The notes beneath the pieces are model-generated. The model saw nothing but the letters and a program-made list of their open reading frames with translations. It was not told where the DNA came from and made no database searches. A program made the translations under genes and the position numbers. 40,093 nucleotides of DNA from Olivibacter sp. XZL3 (GTDB lineage Bacteria > Bacteroidota > Bacteroidia > Sphingobacteriales > Sphingobacteriaceae): positions 1 to 40,093 of the forward strand of contig NZ_SBJH01000011.1 of the NCBI RefSeq assembly GCF_004368405.1, given 5' to 3'. Every line of letters starts with the position of its first letter. Position 1 is the first letter of the stretch. Below are positions 6,045-39,691 of this stretch, piece by piece.

Positions 6045-6046
6045 AA

Positions 6047-7192
6047 TTAATCTTCCTCTTTCTTGTATTTTTCTAATTTGGGAGCTGTATAGCCCTTTAT
6101 TTTTGGCCATTCGCCATTTTTAATAGGCAATAACTTGAGTTTCTTTGGATCAACCACAACATGTTTTATTTTTTGTCGTCTCCAGGTATAAATGAAGTGC
6201 AACAAGCCATCTTTGGTTTGGATTACGGCAGGATATGAATACTGGCTTATGGGTGAATCTTCTAATATCAGTGCTGCCGACCAGCTCTTTCCGTCTTTTG
6301 ATACCGATACGTTTAAAGGTGTCCGAGGACCTTTTGCCAGATTGCCCGGAGGAAGTACATGGTTATAAACCAATACATGGCGACCATCCATCATGGTAAC
6401 TGCATCGGTTCCTGAGTTATTATTCGGTAAGTTGGTTTTTTCGAGTGGCGACCAGGTTTCACCGTTGTCGGTCGACCAAGACTGCACTAAAGCTCTGTTG
6501 CGACTACGGGCTAGTAGCTGTAAGGTACGATTACCATGCACGAGGACGCTTGGTTGGATTGCATCAATGCTATCCTTCGCTGCTAACGGACCGATTTTAC
6601 GCCAAGTCTTAGCAAAATCCGGTGTCACTTCGAAATGGATTTTCCATCCGTTGCCTTCGGTACTGCTAGGACAAAAAAGTTGACCGTTATCAAGTAAGAC
6701 GGGTTTATTTTTTACCGGACCGATATGGCCATTGGGTAGTTTTTCGGCGACCGACCAAGTTTTTCCGCCATCTTTCGAGCGTTTTAACATACCCCACCAC
6801 TCCGAAGGTTTAGGACCGATTTTGTAAAATAAAAGTAAATCACCTCCTGGCACTTGATAGAGCACGGGGTTCCAGGTAGGTAGCCGCTTACCTTCTGCCT
6901 GTATGCCGTCTGCAGCCGAAGCCGGAGCCGTCCAAGTGCCGTTTTCGAACCGACAAACATAGATCTCAACATCGGGATGACGCTCTTTAGTACCACCAAA
7001 AAAGGCAGCTACTAAACCGGTAGGTGTTTCGGCAATCGTTGCCGAATGACACGAAGGGAAAGGGGCTTTCTCATATAGGAATTCCTCTTTCAGAATGCCT
7101 TGTTTCCAAGGATGCTTTTCTTGAGCATGCGTTCCTATAAATAAACCGAGCATGAACAAGGTCAATAATTTAATCTTCATTTTTTTATCCAT
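6047..7192 (-). CDS. BNR-repeat / sialidase-like beta-propeller
   Basis: A 381-residue secreted protein (signal peptide 1-23, THAQ) with a six-bladed sialidase-type propeller (BNR_2 family). Three Asp-box motifs are visible: SKDGGKTW (139-146), STDNGETW (240-247) and SKDGKSW (298-304). The conserved N-terminal block FPSCHSATIAE and FFGGTKE (about 45-70) is typical of this family. The classical sialidase RIP motif is not seen, so sialic acid cleavage should not be assumed. In a pectin locus, a target such as the sialic-acid-like sugars Kdo or Dha of rhamnogalacturonan-II is conceivable, as is alpha-linked rhamnose. It overlaps the DUF3826 gene upstream by one base (TAATG at 7190-7194) and lies 2 bp before the STN-esterase, so the three form one operon. 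Confidence 0.72.
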   Translation of the reverse strand: MDKKMKIKLLTLFMLGLFIGTHAQEKHPWKQGILKEEFLYEKAPFPSCHSATIAETPTGLVAAFFGGTKERHPDVEIYVCRFENGTWTAPASAADGIQAEGKRLPTWNPVLYQVPGGDLLLFYKIGPKPSEWWGMLKRSKDGGKTWSVAEKLPNGHIGPVKNKPVLLDNGQLFCPSSTEGNGWKIHFEVTPDFAKTWRKIGPLAAKDSIDAIQPSVLVHGNRTLQLLARSRNRALVQSWSTDNGETWSPLEKTNLPNNNSGTDAVTMMDGRHVLVYNHVLPPGNLAKGPRTPLNVSVSKDGKSWSAALILEDSPISQYSYPAVIQTKDGLLHFIYTWRRQKIKHVVVDPKKLKLLPIKNGEWPKIKGYTAPKLEKYKKEED

Positions 7193-8002: not shown

Positions 8003-10777
8003 TCATTCATCACTCCTATTTAACTCAACACTAAACTGATACGTTCCTGCTCCCACCTCAAATACACTATGGCTACTTTCTTTTTTCACAAATCGAAGAC
8101 CTTCCACACCTTTTATTCCTTCTCCATGTTCACGGATTTTTTCTTGATCTGCTGTTGGAAAATAAACCAACGCAGTTGCATTGCCTGGTACTTCAATAGT
8201 CCATTGCAGTTTATCTTTTCCCTTTTTCCAACTGCTTCTAATCAGACCATAACTTGAACGATGGGTTCCATCTACCTGGCCTAGCGGTAAATTGAAATCA
8301 GGTTTCATGACAATTTGCTTGAAGCCGGGTTTATTGGCTTTTATGCCGATTAAATTTTCGTAATACCAGATCAATAAATCACCCAGTAACATAACATGGT
8401 TTTGAGAATTCATAGAAGGATTTGCGGTATCTCCATTCCACAACTCCCAAATGGTGGTCGCTCCTTTCTCCACCATGTAACCCCAACTCGGATAGCTTGT
8501 GTTTGTCGCCAATTGAAAGGCAAGGTCAGGGCGCCCGTTATCACTGAGCCCTCTCATTAGATATTGCGTACCGATAACGCCCGTACTGATATGCCCCTTA
8601 TTGTCGCGGCTTATTTTGGTAACCATGTTTTCAAAAACCGCCTTCCGATATTCATCGGGAACCATATCGAAATAAAGCGGAAGTAAATTCGCTGTCACGG
8701 TACTATTGCTGTACTGACCTAAACTTTTGTTCAAATACTTTTGGTTAAACGCTTCCTTTATATCCGCAGCTTTGACTTCAAAAAATCGTTTATCCACTTC
8801 ATTGTTTACAATAGCTGCAAAACGCTGCATCAGCTGTAATAAATAGTAATAGCTTGCAGAGGCCAACAATACCCCTTCCGTTTGACGTTGGGGATCCTTG
8901 GAATGTATTAGCTCTTTGGATTCAGGCGGCACACACCAATCACCATACTTGTCCTTTGTGATCAAGCCATTTTCTTCATAGTTTTCCCACATATATTGCA
9001 TCCATTTTTTCATGGATGGATAATGTTTTCTGATGGCATATACATCTCCATATTGCTGATACAACATATCCGCCACGGTCAGATAGGTCCCGGGCCAGGT
9101 TACATTATCGCTGTAATAACGCCAAAAAGCAGGTGCTACGTCCGGAATACTTCCATCTGGCATTTGGGCGCCCTGTATATCGTCGAGCCATTTGGCGTAT
9201 AATTTCGCGTTATCAAACAAAAAGCTCTCGCCATAGCAACCCGTTGTACGGTCCCCAAGCCAAGGCTGCCGTTCATTCCGTTGCGGGCAGTCGATGGGCA
9301 TACCCTTATAATTGCCCGCAATACCCCACCACGCATTTTGGTAAATCGTATTCAATGTCAACTGATCGCTTGTAAAGGTACCTGTAGTTGCTAATGCATC
9401 ATAGATAACCAAGCCTTGCAGATCATCTAAAGTAGGTTCACCGGGATATCCGCTTATTTCTACATATCGAAAGCCGTGATATACAAATCGGGGTTCCCAA
9501 TATTCCATTTCGCCACCTCGCAAAGTATATACATCCGTTACTTTCGCATCTCTTAAATTGGCGACAAACAGGCCACCGTCCGCTTGAAGGGATTCGGCAA
9601 AGCGCATCTTCACGGCGGTTCCCAACGCACCTTTTACACGGATTTTCAACCAGCCGGTCATATTCTGTCCCATATCGACGATATAGGTGTTTTTGTTAAG
9701 TGGACGAATGGCTTTCGGACGCAAGGTGTCCATTACCTGCATATATTCGTTCATTTGCGCGCGCGGCATACCTCCCGGTTCCTGTACAAAAGAAGCCTTC
9801 AGCCAAGCTTGGTCATTATATCCTACCTGATGCCAAGCAAGTAATTCTTTTCGTGCATCATACTCTTCTCCATCATACTCATTGTTTGTCCGGATCGGAC
9901 CATCCGCTGTCACTTTCCAGGTATCGTCCGTACTAATCGTTTCCTTCGTGCCATCTTCATACCATACATCAAGGTTCAAGCGCATCTTTGGATAGCCAAA
10001 CGTCTTGATCTTATACGGCTTATAGGCTTGTCGCATCGTATAAAAACGACCATTGCCCAGTATAACACCAAGGGCATTCTTGCCGTTCCGGTTAAGATAT
10101 TGGGTTACATCAAAAGTATTGTACTTTATTTCCTTTGTATAGTCGGTAGGAGCGGGTGCTAGCACCTGCTTTCCAATCTTTTCACCATTTATATAAAGTT
10201 CGTACAAGCCCAAGCCCATCATATAGGCAATCGCCTGCTTAATCTTTTTACCGGTTTGAAACTCCTTCCGAAAATAGCGTGCCGATAACCTGGAAAACTG
10301 ATCTTCGCGGTCCCACTCGAAGGATCGATCGAGACCAATCCATCTACCTTTCCAGTCATTGTATTTTAAAAGGCCAACGGTCCAATAAGCAGGCTCGCTC
10401 CAAGCAGTTTCCCCATCATTTGTCCAAACCTTTACCCGCCAATAGCATTGGTCGCGACTATTCAGTTTTTTTCCTTTATAAGAAACCTGTATGCTGCTAT
10501 CGCTCGGAATCCTACCGGAATCCCATCGATCTGCTTGCCCTTGTTTCAACAAATCCAAGGAAGATGCCACTTGAATTTGGTAGGCGATTTGCATGAGACC
10601 GCGTCTATCGCCTTTTAGCTGCCAGCTTAATCGGGGAACGCGTTGGTCGATCCCCAAAGGATTGGTCAATGATTCGCAGCGTAGATTGCTTAACTGCACA
10701 CTGCCTGTCTCGGCAAAAACTGCCGATACAACCCATAAGGTACAGAAAAGAAAAACCAATAAACGCTTGTTTCGCAT
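8003..10777 (-). CDS. GH78 alpha-L-rhamnosidase
   Basis: A 924-residue family 78 enzyme releasing terminal alpha-L-rhamnose, as needed for rhamnogalacturonan side chains or backbone. The start at 10777 is preferred over an ATG at 10801 because it begins the signal peptide (MRNKRLLVFLF…, cleaved after AVFA near residue 22). Domain order follows the family: fibronectin-like N-terminal domain (VQLSNLRCESLTNPLGID), beta-sandwich domains containing ELYINGEKIG, then an (alpha/alpha)6 barrel with the hallmark PIDCPQRNERQPW (general acid Glu502) and the later WELWNG, and a C-terminal beta-sandwich. It starts 7 bp after the upstream GH2 stop, so it is co-transcribed with it. Confidence 0.92.
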   Translation of the reverse strand: MRNKRLLVFLFCTLWVVSAVFAETGSVQLSNLRCESLTNPLGIDQRVPRLSWQLKGDRRGLMQIAYQIQVASSLDLLKQGQADRWDSGRIPSDSSIQVSYKGKKLNSRDQCYWRVKVWTNDGETAWSEPAYWTVGLLKYNDWKGRWIGLDRSFEWDREDQFSRLSARYFRKEFQTGKKIKQAIAYMMGLGLYELYINGEKIGKQVLAPAPTDYTKEIKYNTFDVTQYLNRNGKNALGVILGNGRFYTMRQAYKPYKIKTFGYPKMRLNLDVWYEDGTKETISTDDTWKVTADGPIRTNNEYDGEEYDARKELLAWHQVGYNDQAWLKASFVQEPGGMPRAQMNEYMQVMDTLRPKAIRPLNKNTYIVDMGQNMTGWLKIRVKGALGTAVKMRFAESLQADGGLFVANLRDAKVTDVYTLRGGEMEYWEPRFVYHGFRYVEISGYPGEPTLDDLQGLVIYDALATTGTFTSDQLTLNTIYQNAWWGIAGNYKGMPIDCPQRNERQPWLGDRTTGCYGESFLFDNAKLYAKWLDDIQGAQMPDGSIPDVAPAFWRYYSDNVTWPGTYLTVADMLYQQYGDVYAIRKHYPSMKKWMQYMWENYEENGLITKDKYGDWCVPPESKELIHSKDPQRQTEGVLLASASYYYLLQLMQRFAAIVNNEVDKRFFEVKAADIKEAFNQKYLNKSLGQYSNSTVTANLLPLYFDMVPDEYRKAVFENMVTKISRDNKGHISTGVIGTQYLMRGLSDNGRPDLAFQLATNTSYPSWGYMVEKGATTIWELWNGDTANPSMNSQNHVMLLGDLLIWYYENLIGIKANKPGFKQIVMKPDFNLPLGQVDGTHRSSYGLIRSSWKKGKDKLQWTIEVPGNATALVYFPTADQEKIREHGEGIKGVEGLRFVKKESSHSVFEVGAGTYQFSVELNRSDE

Positions 10778-10784
10778 CTTATTA

Positions 10785-13565
10785 TTATTCGTTAAAATCA
10801 AAATACAAAGTCAACTCTTTTGCCCTGCTCGGGTCCTTTTCATAATCATAGAAGATATTTTTCATGCCCATCGGTCCTGTGTTTTCTCGTTTTTGGGTTT
10901 TTGTCCCAATTCCTGAGATCCCCTGCATAAAGGAGATGTCACCCGAAGGGAAGACGAGATCATAGTTTTTCCACGGGTCTTCTTTAAAAGCCGGTGTGTA
11001 CAGTCGCAGAAAGATATCTTCATCGGGAGTCATTACTTTGAAAGCATGACTTTTGGTCTTAATGAGTGCCCAGTATAGATTAGCATGATAACCTTTAAAT
11101 TCAGGATACAACCAAGGAGCTTCGCCTGTTTCACTTGTATTGTATGCCTTATCCCACACGCCTAAAGTTTGTCCCTTCATTCTATTTTTCCACACGCGAT
11201 AGGGGCCTTTACCCATATACCGAAGGCCTAACATTTCTTTTTCGGGAAGTGAAAAATTCAGGCCAACATAATCGGTAAAATAGTCGCCCGGAAAATAGCG
11301 AACGAAAAGCTTTACCAAGCCGGAGGGGTAGAACGTCCATTCCAAAGTGTTATAATTTACTTTCTTGTCGAACGTAGAAGCAAAAACGAGTTTGGCTCCG
11401 TCTTGATGCAGTTGAAAGTTGCCGAAGTTATTAACGCCTTGCTGCAGGATAGGTCCATTACGGAAGGGAATCTCTCCTTTCGCATTGGTTACCTGCAACA
11501 ACTTGCCCGTTTGTCTATGCAAGGTTAACCGCAGTGTTCCGATAGTTACTAAAAGTAAGCTATCTTGCTCCTCATGGCTTATTTTGTTCGTTCCGCTTTC
11601 TTTAATCAATTGATTTGCGACATTCTTCGGACTTTGTACCGGGAAGGACCAAGTGAACAGTTCCTTTTCATAAGGATCAAAGGCCGTGAGATACAATACT
11701 TGATAACTTAGCCAGTTGGCAGGTAGTTCTATCTGTAACCTTCCTTTTTCAAACGGCTTGATCTCCGGGGAAGTTATAGTTCCACGAATAGAATCCGTGG
11801 CGACACCATCGCTCGACCAGGCTTTCAGCTTCCACGTAAAGGAACATTGGTTTAAATTGGTAAAAGCATAACGGTTTTCAACATTAAATGTACCGTCAAA
11901 AGCAGGTGTGATCTCCCGACGCTCTATAAAGACCGGGCTCCATATCTCTTTGATCGCGTAGAAACTGCCCTCCTTTTCCCGATACGGCCCCACAATGCCG
12001 TCGGCACCACGATTACCATCTGTATCGATGGAATCTTTTTTATCCTTTCGTACCACCCCTTGATCAGCAAAATCCCATAAAAATCCTCCGGCAGCAAGGG
12101 GTTCCGACCACATATGCTTCCAATAGTCTTCCAGTCCGGCACCATGACCGCCATCGTACATACCATGGAGAAACTCGGTAGGCATAACAATATCCTTCCC
12201 ATGATCGTAATTCCCAATACCGTAATTAAACTCACGATAATGTTGCGTTTCGATACCGCCGAACAATTGCCAGGGGTGTACAAGGGGGCGTTTCTGCCGA
12301 TCCTCCTGTAGAAAAATGCTATCTAAATCAAAATTATGCCCGCCCTCGTTCCCATTGGCCCATAGCACAATGGATGGATGATTTTCATCATGAACCATCA
12401 TTTCTTTTAACAGCTTTGTACCGGTAGGTGTATCGTAATGGCCATGCCATCCCGCCAGTTCATCCATGACATATAGTCCAAGCGAATCGCAAACTTCCAG
12501 GAAATGATCATCTGGGGGATAATGCGACATCCGAACGGCATTCATATTCATGGCTTTCATGAGTTCTACGTCTTCAATGCTTAGGGCTTTATTGGTTGTC
12601 CTTCCCGAATTAGGCCAAAAGGAGTGTCTATTAACCCCCTTAAACTTCATCTTTACCCCATTGACATAGATACCATCCCGCTGCTTTACTTCCACCGTTC
12701 TAAAACCGAACTTTTGTTTAACCCGATGTATCAATTTGTTTTTATCGTATAGGTCAAAAACAACTAGGTAACGATGGGGAAATTCGGCCGACCATAATAG
12801 GGGCTTTTCGATGTGGTTTTGAAGACGGATCTGCGCTTGATCCGCTGCGAGTGATTGCTGCATTGGATTTCCGACCGCCTCGCCTTCCAGTGTATATATT
12901 TGTGCTTGGACCCTATCGGCTCTTCCATTAATTTCTATGATAGATTCGAAAGCCCCATTTGCTAAAGCATTGATGGAAACATGCCCAATATGTCGCTCGG
13001 GCAGTACTTCCAGCCATACTGGACGGAAAATGCCGCCAAAAATCCAGAAGTCGCCTTTCCGCTCAGCGGCGTTTACCGATTCATTGGCGGAATGTTTAGC
13101 GACTTTCACTTCGAGCACATTCTCTTTTCCATAATGCAGGAGCTTCGAGATATCGTATTTAAAGGCATAGTAAGCTCCTTGATGGATCGGACCGGCCAAC
13201 TGACCGTTAATCTTCACTTCAGCGTCCGTCATCACGCCCTCAAACACGATGTTAACATGCTGCGTCTTCCATTCACGGGGTATTGGAAAACGGTATTTAT
13301 ATAAACCCTCCTCTTTTCCTACCTTCTCGGTTTTATCAAAGCCATAATTGTACGTTCCAAAACCCTCTAATTCCCAATTGGATGGAACAGGAATCGTAGT
13401 CCACTTTCCCGCGTTAGCTCCGCCTGTGCAATAGAATTCCCAGTTTACCCGATCGTCTTTTCCTGTACCCGAGAGATAAACGCGTTTCACTTCTTGCGCT
13501 CGCGAAGAAAAGAAAAGGCAGAGTGATCCGAATAGAAAACAAAGGTATACAATAGGCTTCTTCAT
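10785..13565 (-). CDS. GH2 beta-galactosidase-type enzyme
   Basis: A 926-residue family 2 glycoside hydrolase, secreted (signal 1-23, SSRAQ). The sugar-binding domain has the usual PSNWELEGFGTYNY near residues 61-75, FGGIFRPVWLE (176-186), then the TIM barrel with GVNRHSFWPNSG (310-321), acid/base Asn406-Glu407 in WANGNEG and nucleophile Glu464 in MPTEF. The C-terminal half contains the large beta-galactosidase small-chain type domain. Beta-galactosidase is most likely (galactan side chains of rhamnogalacturonan), but GH2 also includes beta-glucuronidases and beta-galacturonidases, which cannot be excluded by eye. It lies 1 bp after the upstream propeller gene and 7 bp before GH78, within a three-gene operon. 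Confidence 0.88.
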   Translation of the reverse strand: MKKPIVYLCFLFGSLCLFFSSRAQEVKRVYLSGTGKDDRVNWEFYCTGGANAGKWTTIPVPSNWELEGFGTYNYGFDKTEKVGKEEGLYKYRFPIPREWKTQHVNIVFEGVMTDAEVKINGQLAGPIHQGAYYAFKYDISKLLHYGKENVLEVKVAKHSANESVNAAERKGDFWIFGGIFRPVWLEVLPERHIGHVSINALANGAFESIIEINGRADRVQAQIYTLEGEAVGNPMQQSLAADQAQIRLQNHIEKPLLWSAEFPHRYLVVFDLYDKNKLIHRVKQKFGFRTVEVKQRDGIYVNGVKMKFKGVNRHSFWPNSGRTTNKALSIEDVELMKAMNMNAVRMSHYPPDDHFLEVCDSLGLYVMDELAGWHGHYDTPTGTKLLKEMMVHDENHPSIVLWANGNEGGHNFDLDSIFLQEDRQKRPLVHPWQLFGGIETQHYREFNYGIGNYDHGKDIVMPTEFLHGMYDGGHGAGLEDYWKHMWSEPLAAGGFLWDFADQGVVRKDKKDSIDTDGNRGADGIVGPYREKEGSFYAIKEIWSPVFIERREITPAFDGTFNVENRYAFTNLNQCSFTWKLKAWSSDGVATDSIRGTITSPEIKPFEKGRLQIELPANWLSYQVLYLTAFDPYEKELFTWSFPVQSPKNVANQLIKESGTNKISHEEQDSLLLVTIGTLRLTLHRQTGKLLQVTNAKGEIPFRNGPILQQGVNNFGNFQLHQDGAKLVFASTFDKKVNYNTLEWTFYPSGLVKLFVRYFPGDYFTDYVGLNFSLPEKEMLGLRYMGKGPYRVWKNRMKGQTLGVWDKAYNTSETGEAPWLYPEFKGYHANLYWALIKTKSHAFKVMTPDEDIFLRLYTPAFKEDPWKNYDLVFPSGDISFMQGISGIGTKTQKRENTGPMGMKNIFYDYEKDPSRAKELTLYFDFNE

Positions 13566-13566
13566 C

Positions 13567-15426
13567 TCATTTACTTAAGGGTTCAGCACTGAAATCTTGA
13601 ATAAAATAAACCGCTTCTTTCACCGGATCTCCCGGGTTTTTCAGGTCAAAGTCTTGATCCGTCGGCGTATCCGCATCCGGGAAGCGCCTCACTTCACCCG
13701 TTCGAAAGGCAATACGATTAATGCTAGCTACGGGTGCAAAAAATATTTTCGTGCCCTTCTGCTCGCCATTCACTGCGACGGTGTATGAACGACTACTTAC
13801 ATCCAGTTTTAATTCAATTTGTAAAGCTTCACCTGCCTGATAAGTACTTAACTTGGAATCGCGGTAACCCGCTTTAATTTTTAACAGACTATCTTTGTCT
13901 AGTATTAGACGTACGGCCGCTTGCCCCTTTGCATCCAGGCACTCTATATGGAGAAGTCCGTGGTCAACTTGCTGCGGCAACACGGTAAACTTTACCGACA
14001 GTTTTTTACCTTCGGGGACAACCCGTTCTGCCTTTGCATACTCGTAAGGATCTTTGTCCCGCAACGCTAAGACCTTATTTCCACTAGCCGTTTTCTCGAT
14101 CTTCACGGGTGCCCAAAGTGGACTGTAGAGGTTCCAGTAAGTTAATTCCTCGCCATCGCTCATCTGGTTAAACAGCTCATTTACCGGTTGCGAGACTTTG
14201 GAAGTAATCGGAACGGGAACACGCGCAACCCACATATCTTCCTTGTTCATGCTATAAGATACCCACATGTCCTTGTCTGGAGGGTTACCATTTCCTTCCA
14301 CAATTCCTCGTACATATTGTGGCCCATACGATTTATAGTTCCCCCCATAACGCATGGGTGAGATTTCGCCATTTACTAGCAATAAATCCTTATAATGAAT
14401 TCCATCATCACTGGTTGATACCGCAAGCGGCCATCTGAATTCGGAAGGGTTACACACCGTGGCATAGCGCCCATCTTCTGTGCGCTGCCCCCATATTTTG
14501 GCATTGCTATTCACAAATCCCGGAGCGCGCAGCGGATCATAAGCCCATGTTTTGCCTCCGTCGGTACTGACCGAAGTCAGGGCATGCTTCCATAAGCCAA
14601 CCACCTGCCCATTTGGAAGGCGATAGTAATTGAATGCCTTAATGGCGCGCTTCAGTGGAACCAACGGATCGTCTCGATCCGCTTCTTCTACCCATTGTTG
14701 CATCATCAGCGGCTGCGCCAACAGCTCGTCACAGGCTTTCACGAATCCCTTATCCTTACTTTCTGTATAGAATGGAAAGGCTGATAATTTTTTATCCCAA
14801 GAGGAATTATTACGGATAAAATAAATCGGGCCAAAACGGCCGTCTCTGTAGATCTCGCGAATGACTCTGCCGATACCATTTCCGTCATTGGGGTCATCCT
14901 TTGCATCCATGGCTACTCCATAATAGCCCAGTACAAATAAACGATCACTCTTTGAGACATAAAATCCCATTCGTTGATGCATCACCGCATACAGGTTTTT
15001 CGCAACTAGATCATTTCCCTTCTTCTTCCAGCCATCCGGAACTTTATAAGGAGGAAATACTACCACCGGGTCTGTCCAATGATAACCATCTTTAGAGGTC
15101 TGCAATAGGCTCTCGCCCGGAGGAATATGTTCGCCAACGGGATTACTCAAGAACTCCAAAAAAAATTGTTTGTTCCAATAAGCAAGCATGGGTTGATGAT
15201 TGTAGGTCCACCCGTGCTTACCTGCAAGCTCCGGATGTTCGCGGTTTGCCCGGAAAACCTGAATGTTATGAACACCTACGGCAGGACTTAATTGCCCATG
15301 ATGATAATCGACATTGGATAAAGTGGTACCAATGTACTTTACCGTATCCTGAGCGGCTGCCTTTCCTACTTGAAGTAGGTAGGACAGGCTCAATAATACC
15401 ATTGTTATTTTTAGTTTGAATATCAT
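13567..15426 (-). CDS. Secreted beta-propeller with C-terminal lectin-like module
   Basis: A 619-residue exported protein (signal 1-26, KAAAQ). Residues about 45-430 resemble a sialidase-like propeller, with Asp-box-like turns SKDGYHW (111-117), STDGGKTW and SDDGIHY, and conserved HGWTYNHQPM plus EFLSNPVGEH blocks. Residues about 440-619 look like a concanavalin/LamG-type jelly roll. The overall pattern resembles uncharacterised Bacteroidota proteins often labelled exo-sialidase, and more distantly the propeller enzymes that act on rhamnose-uronic acid linkages (GH145/PL27 type). No catalytic residues can be assigned with confidence. First gene of the operon with GH2 and GH78, it probably acts on the same glycan; a lyase, a hydrolase or a binding protein are all possible. 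Confidence 0.6.
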   Translation of the reverse strand: MIFKLKITMVLLSLSYLLQVGKAAAQDTVKYIGTTLSNVDYHHGQLSPAVGVHNIQVFRANREHPELAGKHGWTYNHQPMLAYWNKQFFLEFLSNPVGEHIPPGESLLQTSKDGYHWTDPVVVFPPYKVPDGWKKKGNDLVAKNLYAVMHQRMGFYVSKSDRLFVLGYYGVAMDAKDDPNDGNGIGRVIREIYRDGRFGPIYFIRNNSSWDKKLSAFPFYTESKDKGFVKACDELLAQPLMMQQWVEEADRDDPLVPLKRAIKAFNYYRLPNGQVVGLWKHALTSVSTDGGKTWAYDPLRAPGFVNSNAKIWGQRTEDGRYATVCNPSEFRWPLAVSTSDDGIHYKDLLLVNGEISPMRYGGNYKSYGPQYVRGIVEGNGNPPDKDMWVSYSMNKEDMWVARVPVPITSKVSQPVNELFNQMSDGEELTYWNLYSPLWAPVKIEKTASGNKVLALRDKDPYEYAKAERVVPEGKKLSVKFTVLPQQVDHGLLHIECLDAKGQAAVRLILDKDSLLKIKAGYRDSKLSTYQAGEALQIELKLDVSSRSYTVAVNGEQKGTKIFFAPVASINRIAFRTGEVRRFPDADTPTDQDFDLKNPGDPVKEAVYFIQDFSAEPLSK

Positions 15427-15850: not shown

Positions 15851-16771
15851 TTATTCCACTTCCTTTTTCAATCCCTTCAAAACACCTTTACTTGCTTTGA
15901 AAATGGTACCATGTTTATGTCCTTCCGGGATATTCATTTGATTGTCAATAGCTTTAAATTGCTTAAAATCCTTTGTACTTACTGCTTTATATTTTTTATC
16001 ACCATATGAATCGAAATAAATCAGATAATCTTCTCCTGCCTTAACCACACTCGGTCCTTCCGTTTTTTCGCCTGAAAAAGGTTGAGAAACATCATGATAC
16101 GGGCCCAAAGCTTTTTCAGCGAAGGCCACCTTTAAATTACGATTGGGTCGTGTATTATCTTTCAGCACCAGCACATAATCATTTGCTTTTCTTTTAACAA
16201 TCACCGCGTCGATCACGCTAAAGCCGGGGTCGAGAAATAACTGTGCCTTAGCGAAGGTTTTAAAATCCTTTGTTGTTGTATAGTACATGCGATGGTTGTT
16301 CTTTTCCTCTTCCACTCCTTTTTCGAAGCGATATGGAATAGTGGAAGCCCATATAATGATATATTGCTTTTCCTCGTCATCATAGAACAATTCAGGCGCC
16401 CACACATTTACCGTTTCCGGTTCATGTTCCATAACGGGGATAAAGCGCTGTTCAGACCAATGTATCAAATCAGTTGACTCCGCATACCCAAAACCTTTAT
16501 CTCCTTTCCAGCTACAGGTCCATACCAAATGAAATATTCCGTCAGGACCACGAACAATGGAGGGATCACGCATCACCTTCTGAGTACCAACCGTAGGTTT
16601 CAAAAATACATGGTTCAAATCTTTCCAGTGATAGGCATCTTCACTGTATAACAAACGTAGACCCGCATCCGCCGGCTCATGGAAAGAAGTAAACATATAT
16701 ATATCCTTGGAACAAGAGGAAAAGAATCCTATTAATATAGTCAGTAGTATGTATTTTAACAGTGATATCAT
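15851..16771 (-). CDS. GH43-type lipoprotein
   Basis: A 306-residue five-bladed propeller of the GH43 type, anchored as a lipoprotein (signal ending GFFSS, lipid Cys20). Visible family motifs are VMRDPSIV (66-73), NVWAPELFYDD (122-132), VIDAVIV (187-193, with candidate Asp189) and KTEGPSVVK (236-244, candidate general acid Glu238). The usual N-terminal catalytic base region (DP near the first strand) reads FHEPADAGL here, so Asp35 is only a tentative base. Family members are alpha-L-arabinofuranosidases, beta-xylosidases or galactosidases; arabinan or galactan side-chain trimming fits the locus. It is 64 bp downstream of the GH140 gene and likely read from the same unit. Confidence 0.78.
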   Translation of the reverse strand: MISLLKYILLTILIGFFSSCSKDIYMFTSFHEPADAGLRLLYSEDAYHWKDLNHVFLKPTVGTQKVMRDPSIVRGPDGIFHLVWTCSWKGDKGFGYAESTDLIHWSEQRFIPVMEHEPETVNVWAPELFYDDEEKQYIIIWASTIPYRFEKGVEEEKNNHRMYYTTTKDFKTFAKAQLFLDPGFSVIDAVIVKRKANDYVLVLKDNTRPNRNLKVAFAEKALGPYHDVSQPFSGEKTEGPSVVKAGEDYLIYFDSYGDKKYKAVSTKDFKQFKAIDNQMNIPEGHKHGTIFKASKGVLKGLKKEVE

Positions 16772-16835: not shown

Positions 16836-18239
16836 CTAAATCGCCTCCAAAACCAACACCCAATCATTCCCCTCCTTTTTTCCGCCCGGTGCTTCAAAAA
16901 TTTGCCCGTCTGTATTTTGTATCTCGCCAATCGCCGTATATGCACCCGTACGCGGATCGAACCAAGATGCTTTCAATTTGCCCGTTGATAATTTTACAGG
17001 ATTAACCTTAATAGTTCCTCCGTTATAGGTATAGATCAAAGCGTAATCTTTACCTCGTGTTGCGACTTTATAATCATACCGCTCGCCATTTTCAGCTAAT
17101 AGCGATTGATCGGGCACGCGATCTAAAAAGGATTTTGACAAGATCAGCTCCTTTAAATAACGCATCTGTCCGGCACCCGGATTCTGTAAGGCATCTTGCC
17201 ACAACTCCGTTGCGCCATAGGCAGCAGTTGAATCGGTATCGTTTTCGTTGAGGAACTGCATAACGGAATTATTTCCATAGGTAAAGCCGAAGCCCCCGGA
17301 GAATACCGACCAATAGGCATAACGACGTACATCTTTATCGGTCCACCTCGGCTCCTTCGGATCGTGCAAACCTTGTGGAATTCCATCATAAGAAGGTTCA
17401 CCGTCAATGGTGGGCTTGGTAGGCTGTAACTGATAATCCCCTAGTACGAAACGCCAATTGTCTTCGCCATAATGATTGGTCTCATTTGCCGATGTGTCTT
17501 GGTCGTAGCGCCGGTGGCCCGACTGGAACATATTGAAGTCTAGCCATGGTTCTTGATGAAACCATTCAGAAGAAGTAGTACGCCCCCGGGGATGAAAAGT
17601 AATAAGATGATTCGTATCGAGTTGGTTTAGTGTATTTCCGATTGTTTTCCAAACTTCAATGGAGTCACTTCCTTTTAGATCTCCTCCGTTTAACCAGATT
17701 ATATTTGGTGCAGAGGCATAACGATTGGCTAGAAAGGTAGCATAGGCCTTTGCCTGCTCCACACTTACCCCACCTTCTTTGACATTGGTGCCCCAAACAG
17801 GCACCAAAGCCAGGTATATATTTTTTTCGGCAGCTTTCTTAACTGCGTAATCAACCAATTGCCAATACGCTAGCCGTGTACTATCTTGTTGCGTGGTATC
17901 TCCTATTACCGGTTTTCCTACATTTCCCATGACGAGAGCCGAATCACCGTAAGCATTTTTAGTTTTCAACATATGCAATAGCATCACTTGAATCACATTA
18001 AAACCTTTCTCTTGCCGATCTTCCAGGTATCGGTCAATTTCTTCTTTGCTAAGTTTGCTGAATAATAACCAGCCGGTATCTCCCAGCCAGAAAAAAGGCT
18101 TACCGTCTTCTGTCACAATGTAACGCCCATTTTCAGCCACTTTTAGCTGTGGAAGGGAGTTCTCTCTTTCGTCTTTGTCGGCACAACTTATAAAGCAAAA
18201 AAAGGCCAATATGAAAACATAGTTGCTAATTCTAGTCAT
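16836..18239 (-). CDS. GH140 apiosidase-like lipoprotein
   Basis: A 467-residue protein with DUF4038 TIM barrel and C-terminal Put_collagen-bind-type sandwich, the architecture of GH140, whose founding member is an apiosidase acting on rhamnogalacturonan-II. The start at 18239 is chosen because it begins a lipoprotein signal (MTRISNYVFI…, lipid Cys19); an ATG at 18275 would overlap the upstream gene. Motifs: FFWLGDTGWLLFSKLS (about 49-64), IIWLNGGD (candidate acid Asp187) and TIDGEPSYD (candidate nucleophile Glu281). The tail ASWFDPRTG…GNDWVLVLE is typical. Adjacent to PL1 and the 1044-residue protein, it supports a rhamnogalacturonan-II substrate. Confidence 0.82.
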   Translation of the reverse strand: MTRISNYVFILAFFCFISCADKDERENSLPQLKVAENGRYIVTEDGKPFFWLGDTGWLLFSKLSKEEIDRYLEDRQEKGFNVIQVMLLHMLKTKNAYGDSALVMGNVGKPVIGDTTQQDSTRLAYWQLVDYAVKKAAEKNIYLALVPVWGTNVKEGGVSVEQAKAYATFLANRYASAPNIIWLNGGDLKGSDSIEVWKTIGNTLNQLDTNHLITFHPRGRTTSSEWFHQEPWLDFNMFQSGHRRYDQDTSANETNHYGEDNWRFVLGDYQLQPTKPTIDGEPSYDGIPQGLHDPKEPRWTDKDVRRYAYWSVFSGGFGFTYGNNSVMQFLNENDTDSTAAYGATELWQDALQNPGAGQMRYLKELILSKSFLDRVPDQSLLAENGERYDYKVATRGKDYALIYTYNGGTIKVNPVKLSTGKLKASWFDPRTGAYTAIGEIQNTDGQIFEAPGGKKEGNDWVLVLEAI

Positions 18240-18252
18240 AATATGTCGGTCA

Positions 18253-21200
18253 TTAAGCAGGGTGTAACCACACAATGCTCTGGTTAGTATTTCCTATTTG
18301 AATCTGTTGTTTTTTGCCTCCCTGTATGCGTTGTTCTCCCCTAACTTTTCCCGTATCTGGATCGAGGTAGAGCACAATGTATCGACCCTTGGCGCTGGAC
18401 AGATCGACTTCCAATTCATTTAGGCCATCAACGTAAATAATTTGCTCCGCAAGTTCTCCCCGTAGGATATACAAACCCTCCTTTCCGCTTGCTTGCGGCT
18501 TCATCTGTGAGGCAGCGGATAAAAAACCGCTAGGTAATGCACTTGGAATGCTTGCCAATGAACCTCCGCCCATGAATACCGCCCAGCCATTACTTTCAGC
18601 GCCGTTTGCCGAATAAATCACTGCCTTATCAGGGTACCGTTCCCGATAAGTGGAAACAGCCTGATAAACTTGCTCGAAGGACGTCTTCTTCGGTTTAAAC
18701 AACCTCGCCTGCTGCCGCGGCGCCAAATGCTGCCCCCCTTTGGGTTCGTAAGTACTACCATCCGCCTGTTTATACCAATATCGGATATCAATCAGGTTGA
18801 CTACCTTGTTACGGTTTGCATCGGCCAATATCGCGTCTTGTACATCTTTCGTTGTACTTAGTCCGATCAGTGCCTTCTGCTGGTTCTCCGTTTCCCATTC
18901 GGCGATAACATCTAACCAGAATTGCACGAAATGCAAAGGACCTGTATATTCAGCGCCAGTCAATTGAAGTACGTTCTTATTGTCTTTGAAATTATCTAAA
19001 CATTGCCGGATATAGGCTCTATGGATGGAAGCCCGATGTTGATTGCTGACATCGTAAAATTGGGCGTCCATAAAGATGCGTTTATCTCCTGCATATGGCG
19101 GAGGTTCAGGAAAACCTGTTTGATTTATATTATTGGCCGTTCGCCATGGGAAATCGGCGTAATGTGCGCCCGCTTCGATAATATTATGCTGGAAATAGTT
19201 TTGATGAACAAGCAATATGTCCTTTGTTTCGGCAAGACTGGCAAAGGTCTTTAACCTCGACCAGTACCATTTATTATATTTAGTTAAGTCGTACTTACTT
19301 AAACCATCCCAAGCCTGCCCTTTCCCGCTTCTGGCAAAGGGTAACTCGTAAAATGGAGGCCATACATCGCCGTCCATACGGCGTATACGTTCATGGTCAT
19401 CTCTTCTCCGATCGTACCAAAGCCCATAATTATGTTCAAAAGCAACAACCTGCTGATTTTTCAGGGTATCGATAACAGCATTTAAATCATCTGTTAGCCC
19501 ATTACCGATCTGTCCCGGAACAAATCGTGTAATATGGGGGCGGGCTTTATCCAACCAATAGCGTCGTGCACCGCCATTCCACCATTGTACATCCTGGCGC
19601 TTTCCGGTTAGTACACCGTTTTTACCTACAAGCCAACCGTTTTCTATATGGATAGTTGACGATGAAGTAACGGAGGTCTGGTCTTTCGGCGAAACAGCAG
19701 CCATGAGCTTTGCATGGTTTGCCTTCAATGAGATAGGGTTCCGCTCGCTTGCCTGATCAATAAATTGACTTAATGTCCATTTGGGTTTAGCGGCTAATTG
19801 TGTCAGTTCCTCGGCAACTTGCACCGAGGGGCTACTGGACGCTTCCGTTTCTTCTGGCATTAAGAATGTCCGCTTCGCCACACTTTCGCCTAAACGCTCT
19901 CGTAACTGTGCATAATACAGACTATAGGGCCTAATATGTTCATTAGATTGTTCCCAATAAGCATTCCCCGCAAACTGTGCCCAAGTTCCAAAAGCCCAGT
20001 TTTGAGCGGTTGGTGGTTGATAACATTCCACACGAGCCGCTGAACACTGCCAAAAAACGCTATTTGCAGCAGCCCAACCTGCTCCATTTCCGTCCTGTTC
20101 CAAATTAGCAAAGCGCAAGGCTTGACCATCAAGATTTATACAATCGAACAAGCTCCCCGACGACCAGCTATCAACCGCTCCACTAAAACTGAAAGGTTGC
20201 ACCGATTGACACTGCACAAAGGCGTTGGGCCCGGCGGCCATAAAGCCAACCGCATAATCGTGATAGCCATCTTCAGCATAGAGACGTTGAAATAAGGTTT
20301 GTTGCCCATTGGTAAAAAAGGTATTCCTCCGCTGCCCGCCAATTTCTGATATAGGAGCTGTTGATTTAGAATCTTCAACTGTTATACGCTTACCTGTTTC
20401 AGCGATATATACCGCTGAGCCCGCGAAATGTTTAAAATTGACCTGTCTTACCCAAGCATCCTCTACGTTTTCCATGGCAATAGCCATCCAACGGTGATCT
20501 TCGTCTTTAGCGTTAGCCATATCGTAGCTCGATTCCAAGCTTAGATTTTCAATGCCGACTTGCTTAATGCGCCCCTTCCATTGATAAACACTAACTTCTG
20601 CTGTATCATAACGATGATCGAGCGCTGTCGTAATAGGTGCGTCAATATAAATTCTGTTTCCTTCGAGCTTGACAATCTTCCTGTCCCAGTAGATATCGCG
20701 TTGCCCCGGTTTCCAGCCTAAAGCAGTAATGCCACCGCCAAAATGATCCGTACCCAAGGTTTTAATCCAGGCTGTAGACGAACCTCTATGAATAGTTATC
20801 TCATCGCCAACTTTAAAATCCCTGCTTTTTTTCACTTCAAAAGACATGGCATTCACTGGGACATAAGGTGTGGTCATATCCGCTCTATGTCGGTGCACAC
20901 TATCCATTATTCCGCTAATCCGGATCAAGGTTTCTCTACTTGTTCCCGTAGCAATTAATACCGTACCATTTTTGCCCGCGCCGCTTCCGCGCAAAACGAT
21001 ACCGGTAGCAGGAATTATTAAACTTCCGGCAATTTCATAGGTGCCTTTTTCAAGCAATATAGCGCCTCTAAATCCGTCTTGATTAAGAGGTAACTGGGCA
21101 ACATAGTTAATGGCCGACTGGATAGTGGCTGTAGCATCTCCCATATGGTGTTTAACCAGCGCTGACGCTTCAACGAAAGGAATCGCTTCTTCTCCTCCTT

Positions 21201-21387
21201 TATAACCACTATAGGAAAAATCAGGAATACGATTGCCCAAACTGTCAGGCACATATACTAATTTGTTTTCTTCCCATTTCAGTGGAGAGTCAATTCGTTC
21301 TTGCGCATAAAGTGGGTTACCCTTACCTAAGCAGAGCGCAAAGGTAAGGGACCACACTAACCAACTACTAAAACCACAATAAACCAT
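18253..21387 (-). CDS. Large secreted beta-helix plus barrel-like protein of unknown activity
   Basis: A 1044-residue exported protein (signal 1-28, PLYAQ). Residues about 30-500 form a pectate-lyase-like right-handed beta-helix (ATIQSAINYVAQLP, IVLRGSGAG, NLSLESSYDM and serial helix turns). Residues about 560-950 look like a TIM-barrel-type domain (RHITRFVPGQIGNG…, VVAFEHNYGLWYDRRRDDHER, ILLVHQNYFQHNIIEAGAH, IYSANGAESNGWAVFMGGG). The last about 90 residues (YIVLYLDPDTGKVRGEQRI…IVWLHPA) are a small sandwich like the GH140 tail. Probably DUF6298-related; no catalytic residues are established. It sits 29 bp after PL1 and 13 bp before GH140, so it is a strong candidate for an undescribed pectin-active enzyme, perhaps with two catalytic domains. 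Confidence 0.7.
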   Translation of the reverse strand: MVYCGFSSWLVWSLTFALCLGKGNPLYAQERIDSPLKWEENKLVYVPDSLGNRIPDFSYSGYKGGEEAIPFVEASALVKHHMGDATATIQSAINYVAQLPLNQDGFRGAILLEKGTYEIAGSLIIPATGIVLRGSGAGKNGTVLIATGTSRETLIRISGIMDSVHRHRADMTTPYVPVNAMSFEVKKSRDFKVGDEITIHRGSSTAWIKTLGTDHFGGGITALGWKPGQRDIYWDRKIVKLEGNRIYIDAPITTALDHRYDTAEVSVYQWKGRIKQVGIENLSLESSYDMANAKDEDHRWMAIAMENVEDAWVRQVNFKHFAGSAVYIAETGKRITVEDSKSTAPISEIGGQRRNTFFTNGQQTLFQRLYAEDGYHDYAVGFMAAGPNAFVQCQSVQPFSFSGAVDSWSSGSLFDCINLDGQALRFANLEQDGNGAGWAAANSVFWQCSAARVECYQPPTAQNWAFGTWAQFAGNAYWEQSNEHIRPYSLYYAQLRERLGESVAKRTFLMPEETEASSSPSVQVAEELTQLAAKPKWTLSQFIDQASERNPISLKANHAKLMAAVSPKDQTSVTSSSTIHIENGWLVGKNGVLTGKRQDVQWWNGGARRYWLDKARPHITRFVPGQIGNGLTDDLNAVIDTLKNQQVVAFEHNYGLWYDRRRDDHERIRRMDGDVWPPFYELPFARSGKGQAWDGLSKYDLTKYNKWYWSRLKTFASLAETKDILLVHQNYFQHNIIEAGAHYADFPWRTANNINQTGFPEPPPYAGDKRIFMDAQFYDVSNQHRASIHRAYIRQCLDNFKDNKNVLQLTGAEYTGPLHFVQFWLDVIAEWETENQQKALIGLSTTKDVQDAILADANRNKVVNLIDIRYWYKQADGSTYEPKGGQHLAPRQQARLFKPKKTSFEQVYQAVSTYRERYPDKAVIYSANGAESNGWAVFMGGGSLASIPSALPSGFLSAASQMKPQASGKEGLYILRGELAEQIIYVDGLNELEVDLSSAKGRYIVLYLDPDTGKVRGEQRIQGGKKQQIQIGNTNQSIVWLHPA

Positions 21388-21415: not shown

Positions 21416-23077
21416 TTAATTCTTTACTAAAGCGGGTGTCACTGTTTTTATGTCTACCAAGCTATTCAGGTAATTTTCAATATTGGTATAGCCATTTGCT
21501 GCATATTTCGATGCATCGCTCGGATCATTTGCATTTAATCCGTTCTTCTTCTCCCACTCGTCCGGCATACCATCTTTGTCGCTATCCGTATAAGGCGCTC
21601 CTTTATACTCGGGATAGCCACCTACTTGATTAATATCGGTAATAATACCCTGTTTATAAGAATCAATTGGCAAGCGACGGTGTTCAAATTGCGTCTCCGG
21701 CAATTTTACATTTTTTAGGTAGTTTATCTTTCCTGTTCTTACCTGCTCGATGACGCGTGTATCCACCGGATCTCTTTTTGGAAGTGTTGCCCCCACATGC
21801 TCTAAGACATAATCGTATGCTTCCCTGGTAGGTAAGATACTGATTTCAGGCATCGGAAGGGGCTTATCATAGCGCATTTTCGCAAAATAAGGTTTAGCTG
21901 TTTCCAAGCTCATTTCATTTCCGTCTTTCCCCTCGATCTGCACACCGCCATCCCAGTTGTCCTTGGTAACCCGTTCATTCCCTTCCACAATATTTCCGGC
22001 AACATGTAATCTACCAAACACCACGTAAGGCAGTTTGCTTCTACCCGATTCCGGTTTAATAATCCGATAGCCTACGGGTGAATCTTTCGGTGTGAGCGGA
22101 CCGGGTTTGTAGTAATTATTGATGATATTATACATGGCTTTATAGTCGCCTCCATCGGTTGAACGATGCACCCAGTTAAACACCACATTATTGGCAAAGT
22201 TGAAAACGCCGTTCCAACCGATAGAAGGATTTCTACCGGCATTATCTGCCCAAAGATTTCGCATGAAAGTACAGTTCTCTCCCCCTAAGGTACTACCAAA
22301 GGCATGGTTCCAGGTATCCAAGGCTTCTGAGAAGATTGAATTCTGAATGGTAATGTTTACGGTTCCAAGCTTCTCTTCCGACGCTTTACCCGTACTGTCA
22401 TTATACATGTGCCGATACATGGACATGTTTTCGTCCAGTCCCCAACTTGCTGAAACATGATCGATCATAATGTTTCCGATCGGATTTCCACCGATGGCAT
22501 CATCTCTTCGTCCAACCCAGGTTTCTCCTCGACGGAAACGCATAAAACGGATAATTACGTCATGGGTGTTGATCCAAACCGATTCACCAGCTACACAAAT
22601 ACCATCGCCCGGAGCGGATTGACCAGCAATTGTGATATAGGGAGCCCGGATAATTAACGGCGTTTTCAAGCGAATGATTCCTGCAACATTAAAGACAACG
22701 ATACGTGCCCCCCCTTGCTCGCAGGCCTCGCGCAAAGTCCCCGGACCACTATCGGCTAAGCTGGTAACTACAATCACCTTTCCTCCACGTCCACCAAATG
22801 AGTAGGCTCCCCCACCTTCAGCCCCCGGAAATGCCGGGATATCGGACTGCGGCAAATCAATTGCCTTTGACGCCCATGGGACGTAAGGCTTCCCGTTCTT
22901 AGCTTCTTCTTCAATAATTGGCAAGGCCTTCTGCCACGCAATTTCAGATTGCCATTCAGCAGCCTTCATCATCGAATCACTCCTCCGCTTCACATCTTGT
23001 GGTATTTTTGGATATTGGGCGTAAGTTGTAGCAACGATCCCAATAAAAAAAGGTAATACTAAAAAAAGTCTCTTCAT
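21416..23077 (-). CDS. PL1 pectate lyase
   Basis: A 553-residue polysaccharide lyase of family 1 (PL1_2-like), cleaving de-esterified homogalacturonan by beta-elimination. Signal peptide 1-20 (TTYAQ). After a helical N-terminal segment the beta-helix starts at FPGAEGGGAYSFGGRGG (83-99); then GTLREA, IDHVSASWGLDE (205-216, calcium site and conserved SWG), NHAFGSTLGG and AGRNPS with candidate catalytic Arg282. The C-terminus has an EF-hand-like calcium loop (DSDKDGMPDEWE) followed by a helix-rich tail. It is the first gene of block D; the 494 bp upstream contain a repeated TTGAC motif cluster, suggesting separate control from susCD. Confidence 0.9.
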   Translation of the reverse strand: MKRLFLVLPFFIGIVATTYAQYPKIPQDVKRRSDSMMKAAEWQSEIAWQKALPIIEEEAKNGKPYVPWASKAIDLPQSDIPAFPGAEGGGAYSFGGRGGKVIVVTSLADSGPGTLREACEQGGARIVVFNVAGIIRLKTPLIIRAPYITIAGQSAPGDGICVAGESVWINTHDVIIRFMRFRRGETWVGRRDDAIGGNPIGNIMIDHVSASWGLDENMSMYRHMYNDSTGKASEEKLGTVNITIQNSIFSEALDTWNHAFGSTLGGENCTFMRNLWADNAGRNPSIGWNGVFNFANNVVFNWVHRSTDGGDYKAMYNIINNYYKPGPLTPKDSPVGYRIIKPESGRSKLPYVVFGRLHVAGNIVEGNERVTKDNWDGGVQIEGKDGNEMSLETAKPYFAKMRYDKPLPMPEISILPTREAYDYVLEHVGATLPKRDPVDTRVIEQVRTGKINYLKNVKLPETQFEHRRLPIDSYKQGIITDINQVGGYPEYKGAPYTDSDKDGMPDEWEKKNGLNANDPSDASKYAANGYTNIENYLNSLVDIKTVTPALVKN

Positions 23078-28925: not shown

Positions 28926-29558
28926 TTAATTAGGTTGTCCCCGTTGCTGTTCCTTTAACTTCTCCTCCCAAACCTGTCGTGCAATTTTTGTTTCCACGCC
29001 TTCTTTCGACAGATAATTGTTGATCTTCCCCTTGTACTTACCAAACCAAGCATGTTTCGCTTCTGAGGATCCCGCATCCATCGCTTTTTCACGTGCTTCC
29101 GTAAGATAGGCAAGAATCTGTGCTTTTTGCTGCTCCGTTAAACTTGGAAGCATTTCTAAGTAGCCCTTATAGGTAATCGGCAGCACATTATAAGTCATTT
29201 CATTTTTTACCTGCTCAATCTGTTCTTCATTTAGTTCCTTACCCAAACGCTTTAAGTATTTCCCATGAAGTTTAGCCAATTTTTCCTCACTTTTATCTCC
29301 GGTCAACTGATGAGCTTTTTCATTTTGTTCTCTATCGGTATGTATTGCATTTAGGTCCCTGTATTGTTGTACAATGATATCCCGAATAACGATGGACTTC
29401 TTAGGATCCAATTGCAGTTTGTCGACGATCTTTTGCGCTCTTTTAGTGATAACCTGCGTATAATCGTCTTGTTCAACCGCATATGTCCCTGATATAAAGG
29501 CCGTCAAAAATAAGATGGCAATTAAAATTATTCGATGTTTTTTTTGAAAATCCTTCAT
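28926..29558 (-). CDS. DUF3826 family protein (second paralogue)
   Basis: A 210-residue exported, helical protein (signal about 1-27) of the DUF3826 type. It shares with the 7192-7875 protein the order of elements: an N-terminal RDIIVQQYRDLNAIH segment, ELNEEQIEQVKNEMTYNVLPITYKGYLEMLPSLTE, and a C-terminal AKIWFGKYKGKINNYLSKEGV-like block, but sequence identity is low. It immediately precedes susC and may be the first gene of the transport operon. Its function is unknown. The 273 bp upstream contain no gene and should hold the promoter, though no clear box was found. Confidence 0.72.
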   Translation of the reverse strand: MKDFQKKHRIILIAILFLTAFISGTYAVEQDDYTQVITKRAQKIVDKLQLDPKKSIVIRDIIVQQYRDLNAIHTDREQNEKAHQLTGDKSEEKLAKLHGKYLKRLGKELNEEQIEQVKNEMTYNVLPITYKGYLEMLPSLTEQQKAQILAYLTEAREKAMDAGSSEAKHAWFGKYKGKINNYLSKEGVETKIARQVWEEKLKEQQRGQPN

Positions 29559-39435: not shown

Positions 39436-39691
39436 TAAATTTTTCAGCAAAAGGCGGAGCCCATTAAAATCTATTGACCCGTTTTCGGGATATAGCATAA
39501 ATGCGATGGGAATAAAATCCTTTTCTTTCTTTCTCATTACAATCGGTTAATCGTCTTTGGCGTTTAAATAAAGGTTAGAACGACCACAAAGTTATCTGGC
39601 CCGTGGAAACGTTTCTTATAATATATTTGCTTCAAATTATAGGATATTAGCGTATAGGGCTATAAGCGGCAGGCGCTAGGCCGAACCAAAA

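Follow-up and report, generated by a model that had tools for sequence, protein, structure and literature searches.

A two-module DUF6298 protein with a predicted beta-helix and a GH140-like barrel in a rhamnogalacturonan-II locus of Olivibacter

We analyzed a stretch of 40,093 nucleotides from Olivibacter sp. XZL3 (assembly GCF_004368405.1, contig NZ_SBJH01000011.1, positions 1 to 40,093; hereafter the window) and focused on one gene of its minus strand, at positions 18253 to 21387. This gene encodes a protein of 1044 amino acids that joins an N-terminal beta-helix to a barrel of the Pfam family DUF6298. The DUF6298 protein is very probably a component of the degradation of rhamnogalacturonan-II (RG-II), a plant polysaccharide of great complexity, since the 19 sampled genomes that encode it also carry GH143- and GH140-type genes, PL1 and GH140 genes lie near it in most of the loci compared, and one relative is fused to a GH140 protein. 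We give about even chances to a two-module carbohydrate-active enzyme that is secreted, probably into the periplasm, and dedicated to RG-II. Most likely it would be a hydrolase with acidic RG-II fragments as substrates, cutting in the periplasm near the apiose or backbone region, the exact bond being less sure. The gene and its parts are the following:

18253..21387, minus strand: whole gene, 1044 amino acids, ATG start (ORF list, Pfam DUF6298, AlphaFold2)
21301..21387, minus strand: residues 1-29, signal-peptide-like N-terminus ending ...LYAQ (boundary by eye)
19888..21282, minus strand: residues 36-500, right-handed beta-helix, 421-484 at low confidence (AlphaFold2, Foldseek, VIA, helix family alignment)
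18502..19959, minus strand: residues 477-962, Pfam DUF6298 match, profile positions 2-487 of 487 (E 1.9e-247)
18553..19662, minus strand: residues 576-945, TIM barrel of GH140-like fold (AlphaFold2 of barrel and sandwich, Foldseek, VIA)
18949..18951, minus strand: codon of E813, an invariant Glu after strand beta4, the clan GH-A acid/base position (alignments)
18256..18501, minus strand: residues 963-1044, C-terminal beta-sandwich, GH140-like (AlphaFold2, VIA, profile comparison)

The two-domain protein is real and not a chance open reading frame (ORF). A scan of named contigs revealed at least 571 stretches encoding a relative, and the relatives in the 80 loci that we kept are 56-86% identical. 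The plus-strand frame at 18253-21387 is riddled with stops, and the coding ORF is on the minus strand. An initial annotation of this DNA had placed a secreted protein of 1044 residues here without naming a strand, and exactly this ORF was found. No lipobox was seen in the signal-peptide-like N-terminus of the window protein, which is thus probably secreted and periplasmic; among 99 related sequences, whose ORF starts are uncertain, five have a lipobox-like pattern. The protein belongs to DUF6298 (PF19815), a Pfam family labelled as of unknown function, with 822.2 bits against a gathering cut-off of 28.1, and this was its sole Pfam match in a scan at E 0.01. As the match covers residues 477-962, the DUF6298 domain begins near the end of the helix.

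Structure prediction bears out the anatomy of helix, barrel and GH140-like sandwich proposed by the initial annotation. The full-length AlphaFold2 model, made with a 49-sequence alignment (the window protein and 48 of the 80 kept loci), has a mean predicted local distance difference test score (pLDDT) of 76.9 and a predicted template modelling score (pTM) of 0.78. It comprises a beta-helix at about residues 36-420, a linker with several alpha-helices, a barrel at about 615-945 and a sandwich at 963-1043, with low-confidence stretches at 421-484, 656-698 and 743-767. The barrel and sandwich modelled alone with 80 sequences (the window protein and 79 of the 80 loci, L106 being left out) reached a pLDDT of 81.6 and a pTM of 0.88, model positions 85-109 and 172-179 remaining poor. 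The comparison of both domains with Foldseek, as the initial annotation had proposed, led from the helix to phage tailspikes and capsule lyases and from the barrel to GH140 structures, namely 4qfu (E 3.7e-9) and 5msy (E 3.9e-9) with the full model and 5msy (E 1.9e-12) with the barrel alone.

By its predicted model, the barrel with its sandwich folds most like a GH140 apiosidase, yet it is not a GH140 enzyme. Among the families in the VIA list, the best match was the GH140 structure 8t9w, both for the full model (Z 19.7, across residues 578-1044) and for the barrel and sandwich alone (Z 19.7, rmsd 3.6, 335 residues aligned, 15% identity). For the barrel alone the next were 3kzs (Z 18.7) and 5msy (BT_1012; Z 18.6), and after GH140 came GH5 mannanases at Z 18.2 or less, mostly without the sandwich. 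The top scores differ by little over 1; GH140 is hence nearest by fold and sandwich, with a margin that is not wide. Sequence identity of the barrel to the GH140 structures is 11-15%, and a profile comparison with GH140 aligned the sandwich alone, at a weak 18% probability, so that the homology of the barrel to GH140 rests on structure and on intermediate proteins of about 500 amino acids. When the single protein sequence was searched against the PDB, there were 16 matches with E no higher than 1; 13 were to antibody chains, and we took them as chance. A profile search matched three entries: 7chu at E 6e-4 over 66 positions, a pectate lyase at 0.033 and an antibody at 0.24.

The barrel shares with GH140 (BT_1012, 5msy/3kzs; 8t9w) the succession of a TIM barrel and a C-terminal beta-sandwich, and the two proteins stand in a common gene cluster. 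They differ in that the 479-amino-acid GH140 neighbour has no beta-helix, whereas the window protein has no Glu after strand beta7. Membership in GH140 was rejected, since a scan at E 0.01 gave no match to the Apiosidase profile PF13204 and the beta7 Glu is missing. In 32 GH140 proteins of these loci (the window copy and 31 of 63 homologues, L104 being left out), D199 after beta4 and E293 after beta7, which we take to be the catalytic residues, are invariant. Likewise, of the two Glu expected after beta4 and beta7 in a retaining hydrolase of clan GH-A, only the first is conserved in the DUF6298 proteins.

This first residue, E813, is a Glu in all 49 sequences of one alignment and in all 19 of another that partly overlaps with it; the alignment sets A1 and A2 both include the window protein, may have species in common, and are not independent. 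It aligns with the NE of the relatives of about 500 amino acids, which are weak DUF6298 matches. An NE after beta4 is the usual acid/base motif of clan GH-A. The initial annotation had looked to conserved acidic residues around the barrel, and part of this stands: besides E813, D851 and D867 are kept in 49 of 49 sequences and D848 in 48, while the usual Glu after beta7 is missing. D928 (35 of 49) and D/E931 (42 of 49) are common, not universal. With L106 and L060 dropped from the 99 sequences, we counted the positions that are the same in at least 98% of the remaining 97. The barrel has 97 such positions among its 370 residues and the helix 81 among 465, against 2 among 75 for the linker and 1 among 85 for the sandwich. 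Among the conserved residues are R661, D664, H665, R667, R670, E681, R686, E738, R749, E813, D848, D851 and D867. The conserved arginines at 661-686 would fit an acidic substrate.

We counted the companions of the protein in 395 evenly drawn Bacteroidota genomes, that of Olivibacter included. A full-length DUF6298 protein occurs in 19 of them; DUF6298 matches were found in 27, and the eight with weak, partial ones alone were not counted. Strong matches to the GH143-type propeller occur in 21 genomes, including all 19 with DUF6298 (368 bits or more) and two without it (G190 with 346 bits and G031 with 327). PF13204, the GH140 profile, exceeds its cut-off in 47 genomes, again including all 19. 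Fisher tests gave p values of 1.8e-30 (GH143-type) and 6e-20 (GH140-type), uncorrected for relatedness. The DUF6298 and propeller genes lie within 7 kb of each other in 15 of the 19 genomes, and on one contig within 80 kb in all of them (arithmetic by hand). The RG-II setting named by the initial annotation is supported, with stronger evidence than was within its reach.

In the window itself, the gene stands between a PL1-like and a GH140 gene, as the initial annotation had stated, in a locus with these components:

21416..23077, minus strand: PL1-like pectate lyase, directly upstream (PDB 9buj, a solved pectate lyase, E 1.9e-42)
16836..18275, minus strand: GH140 apiosidase homologue, BT1012-like, directly downstream (Pfam PF13204, 384.5 bits; PDB 3kzs/5msy)
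15851..16771, minus strand: GH43/arabinofuranosidase-like, kept beside GH140 (NCBIfam match below its cut-off)
13567..15426, minus strand: GH143-type beta-propeller, BT_1020-like (Pfam E 2e-124)
10785..13565, minus strand: GH2 enzyme, 44% to a GH2-like protein of a B. theta-like RG-II locus
8003..10801, minus strand: GH78-type alpha-L-rhamnosidase
7192-7875 and 28926-29558, minus strand: two stand-alone DUF3826 genes
4650..6110, minus strand: RG-II pectin methylesterase, BT1017-like (6goc, titled DUF3826 domain-containing protein, E 1.6e-132)
33502..36321, minus strand: GH95

The locus thus holds GH140, a GH143-type propeller, a BT1017-type methylesterase, GH78, GH95 and PL1, and the window totals include two GH2 and two GH28 genes. 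The likely ATG start of the GH140 neighbour is 18239, by eye, and the PL1-like gene has no Pfam match at E 0.01. Elsewhere in the Olivibacter genome, contig C107 encodes one homologue of BT1002 (52%) and another of a BPa0997-like, BT0997-type protein (53%), and there are three GH106 loci. The family names GH138, GH141 and GH143 for the BT0997-type, BT1002 and propeller homologues are our assumption, and we take 6goc to be BT1017. The latter fits PMC7939467, excerpts of which describe the DUF3826 of Bacteroides thetaiotaomicron (B. theta) as the C-terminal part of the methylesterase BT1017, without esterase activity when alone. The window methylesterase at 4650-6110 has no DUF3826 match. A BNR/GH33-like gene (6047-7192, minus strand) and the GH78 gene are separate here, and both match one protein of 1299 amino acids in the B. 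theta-like RG-II locus. An MGH1-like glycoside hydrolase (37873-39537, minus strand) is found within 10 kb in 14 of the 80 kept loci.

These 80 loci, out of at least 571 stretches, come from Olivibacter, Pedobacter, Sphingobacterium, Hymenobacter, Mucilaginibacter, Niastella, Runella and others. Within 10 kb of the gene we found PL1 in 78, GH143 in 64, GH140 in 63 and GH43-like genes in 62; the adjoining gene is PL1 on the upstream side in 73 loci and GH140 on the downstream side in 63. In one Bacteroidetes metagenome-assembled genome (MAG), locus L106, a single ORF of 1438 codons joins the DUF6298 protein (57% identity, residues 5-998) to GH140 (55%), whose match runs over residues 1014-1437 and begins at residue 44 of GH140. 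The loss of the GH140 signal peptide argues for a true fusion, although a sequencing or assembly error in the MAG is possible. Full-length relatives of 57% identity with PL1 nearby also occur in MAGs titled Sedimentisphaerales and Phycisphaerae (L086 and L093), which suggests horizontal transfer or misbinning. A relative 43% identical over 94% of the query lies on MT837463.1 (9.6 kb, Bacteriophage sp., human faeces), perhaps misassigned bacterial DNA. In Bacteroides finegoldii (L135, NZ_OY725888.1), a polysaccharide lyase and DUF6298 pair stands on a 123-kb record labelled plasmid, and no other RG-II-type gene was named within the 33 kb viewed, where the gene table is incomplete.

The gene can be followed into the genus of genome G238, taken as Bacteroides because two of its members have a GH140 identical to BT_1012. 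In this genus, DUF6298 is present in 30 of 99 genomes and GH140 (BT1012 query) in 59 of 158. One DUF6298 gene is broken (G445:C90:17610-19060): its coding sequence is divided between two frames, and the first of these contains a stop. GH140 accompanies DUF6298 in 29 of the 30 genomes, the exception (G453) being 81% complete. The two members with a GH140 100% identical to BT_1012 (G395 and G451, 300 amino acids compared) have open DUF6298 genes of 1038 and 1037 codons, in the order GH2-like, a protein of 1500 or 1474 amino acids, PL1 (60-61%) and DUF6298 (51-53%); the domains found in the 1474-residue protein of G451 are those of a hybrid two-component regulator. For comparison, excerpts from Martens et al. 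2011 (PMC3243724) name an RG-II locus 'BT0977-30' with the regulator BT0981. By gene order, the DUF6298 protein would correspond to BT0979 of B. theta and PL1 to BT0980.

The beta-helix has a wider family of its own. A helix profile of 20 rows matched 39 of the 395 genomes, and the 19 fused members took the 19 best places, with at least 592.9 bits against 483.7 or less for all others. Twenty of these genomes lack a full-length DUF6298 protein, and one (G033) has both a fused and a separate copy. Relatives in Paenibacillus (38% identity) and Streptomyces (35%) match by tblastn over the helix alone; the neighbours of the Paenibacillus gene point to no clear substrate, and the Streptomyces record carries no annotation. 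In another genome three helix-family genes adjoin (G384:C14:242680-249299), out of five matches tallied there. The barrel and sandwich, for their part, have relatives of about 500 amino acids (L020-L030), of low identity and with no Pfam family of their own and no beta-helix in the ORF. Ten of these 11 show two collinear matches to barrel and sandwich, and L021 a single one; in L028 the match to the sandwich does not reach significance. They also lack an evident beta7 Glu, and two of ten scanned have a weak Collagen_bind_2 match, as in GH140. Eight of the nine genomes with such a protein have no full-length DUF6298 protein, and the helix family without full-length DUF6298 is found in five of these nine genomes vs 15 of the 386 others.

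How might such a protein act on RG-II? We suggest that the TIM barrel descends from the GH140/clan GH-A fold and works as a glycoside hydrolase, in which E813 would donate the proton and the second catalytic carboxylate would be another residue than the usual Glu after beta7. The arginines of the barrel loops would bind an acidic, galacturonate-containing RG-II fragment left by the PL1 backbone cut, and the beta-helix would either grip a galacturonan stretch or form a second, PL29-like catalytic site. The barrel may then hydrolyse a bond at the apiose-galacturonate base of side chains A or B, or in the adjacent backbone, beside the site of GH140. Excerpts of PMC9843283 propose RG-II degradation as periplasmic. 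The initial annotation's view of the protein as a candidate enzyme with no assigned activity is supported: its predicted fold, its conservation and its strong association with RG-II degradation genes are shown, whereas the catalytic role is inferred.

Several observations weigh against a hydrolase dedicated to RG-II. When the beta7 strands are paired by eye (KPTIDGEP in GH140, KAVIYSAN in the window protein), the GH140 nucleophile falls on column 927, which holds A in 24, G in 21, S in 2 and E in 2 of 49 sequences. With A or G in 45 of 49, the barrel is unlikely to use the standard retaining mechanism of clan GH-A, and it could have no catalytic role at all. Its loops 656-698 and 743-767 are among the low-confidence parts of the model. 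GH140 occurs without DUF6298 in 28 of the 47 PF13204 genomes, and in 10 further genomes of the 99 of the G238 genus, two of them by distant matches only. A single genus (g9) supplies nine of the 19 positive genomes, and the p value therefore overstates how independent the association is. In 17 of the 80 loci there is no separate GH140 within 10 kb; it is fused in L106, some loci are cut by contig ends, but others, such as L058, L063, L067 and L096, are full length. Finally, according to excerpts of PMC7939467, 21 of the 22 linkages in RG-II are cut by B. theta, so that no bond near apiose is obviously vacant.

In a rival reading, for which the missing Glu of the barrel is one argument, the beta-helix is the catalytic module. 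The protein would then be a new PL29-related lyase, or an epimerase, that attacks the galacturonate backbone of RG-II, with the barrel as a degenerate GH140-like module serving only to bind the side chain; we hold this to be a minority possibility. The best VIA matches of the helix include an alginate epimerase/lyase (8jaz, Z 23.2), a polygalacturonase and a K1 capsule lyase, and BT_1002, which we take to be GH141, follows at Z 20.2. However, the beta-helix fold is found in lyases and hydrolases alike, and in binding proteins too. The 20-row helix alignment, which includes two barrel-less relatives, has R353 and H376 in every row, but H376 is outside the positions kept in 98% of the 97 fused proteins, and conserved charged residues are denser in the barrel. 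The helix family also works elsewhere without DUF6298, in 20 of the 395 genomes. The NCBIfam profile NF058554 (BT3328, PL29) matches part of the helix faintly, with 45.7 bits in the window protein, 31.6 in Paenibacillus and 26.3 in Streptomyces, far below its curated cut-off of 1100, and membership in PL29 was rejected on this score. This match is a lead to lyase chemistry and no proof of it. Excerpts of PMC6994673 describe BT3328 as a surface lyase on chondroitin sulfate and hyaluronan. Both modules might even be active, in a bifunctional enzyme founding two new families, with a PL29-related lyase in the helix and a GH140-derived hydrolase in the barrel that has a relocated nucleophile or is inverting. 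It would catalyse an RG-II step outside the published B. theta pathway, e.g., the release of a side chain together with the galacturonate that bears its apiose, or the handling of natural variants of RG-II. We consider this rather unlikely.

Without any catalysis, the protein could bind or handle RG-II in the periplasm and present acidic fragments to PL1 and GH140. The loss of the canonical beta7 Glu, the conserved loop arginines, the constant gene partners and the GH140 fusion are all compatible with this, but the barrel carboxylates E813, D851, D867 and D848 are more typical of an enzyme, and a binding protein seems to us quite improbable. The initial annotation had named one of the unassigned RG-II linkages as a possible target, and this idea is weakened. 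Excerpts of PMC7939467 report that B. theta leaves one linkage uncut, 2-O-methylxylose-alpha1,3-fucose (2-O-Me-Xyl-alpha1,3-Fuc), and so leaves this disaccharide. A GH-like protein without an assigned reaction, present in 19 genomes that all have GH143-type genes, would suit this vacancy. Yet the two Bacteroides with a BT_1012-identical GH140 hold an open DUF6298 gene in a locus that resembles BT0977-BT1030 by gene order; assuming that the reported strain has the same gene, this linkage is an unlikely target on present evidence. We therefore rejected it as the leading idea and regard such an activity as very improbable. Taken as a whole, the initial interpretation is partly supported, and a periplasmic hydrolase of acidic RG-II fragments is the reading that we retain.

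The folds and the RG-II setting of the DUF6298 protein are already known. No description of an activity, for DUF6298 proteins or for BT0978-BT0980, was found in Pfam, in NCBIfam or in the literature searched, which excludes the primary RG-II study. Its presence in all 19 sampled genomes with a GH143-type gene of at least 368 bits, together with its fusion to apiosidase in one MAG, would point to a missed step of RG-II degradation, to a redundant one or to a missed helper. Moreover, a GH140-like barrel that has lost the standard catalytic Glu would bear on how the folds of clan GH-A change mechanism.

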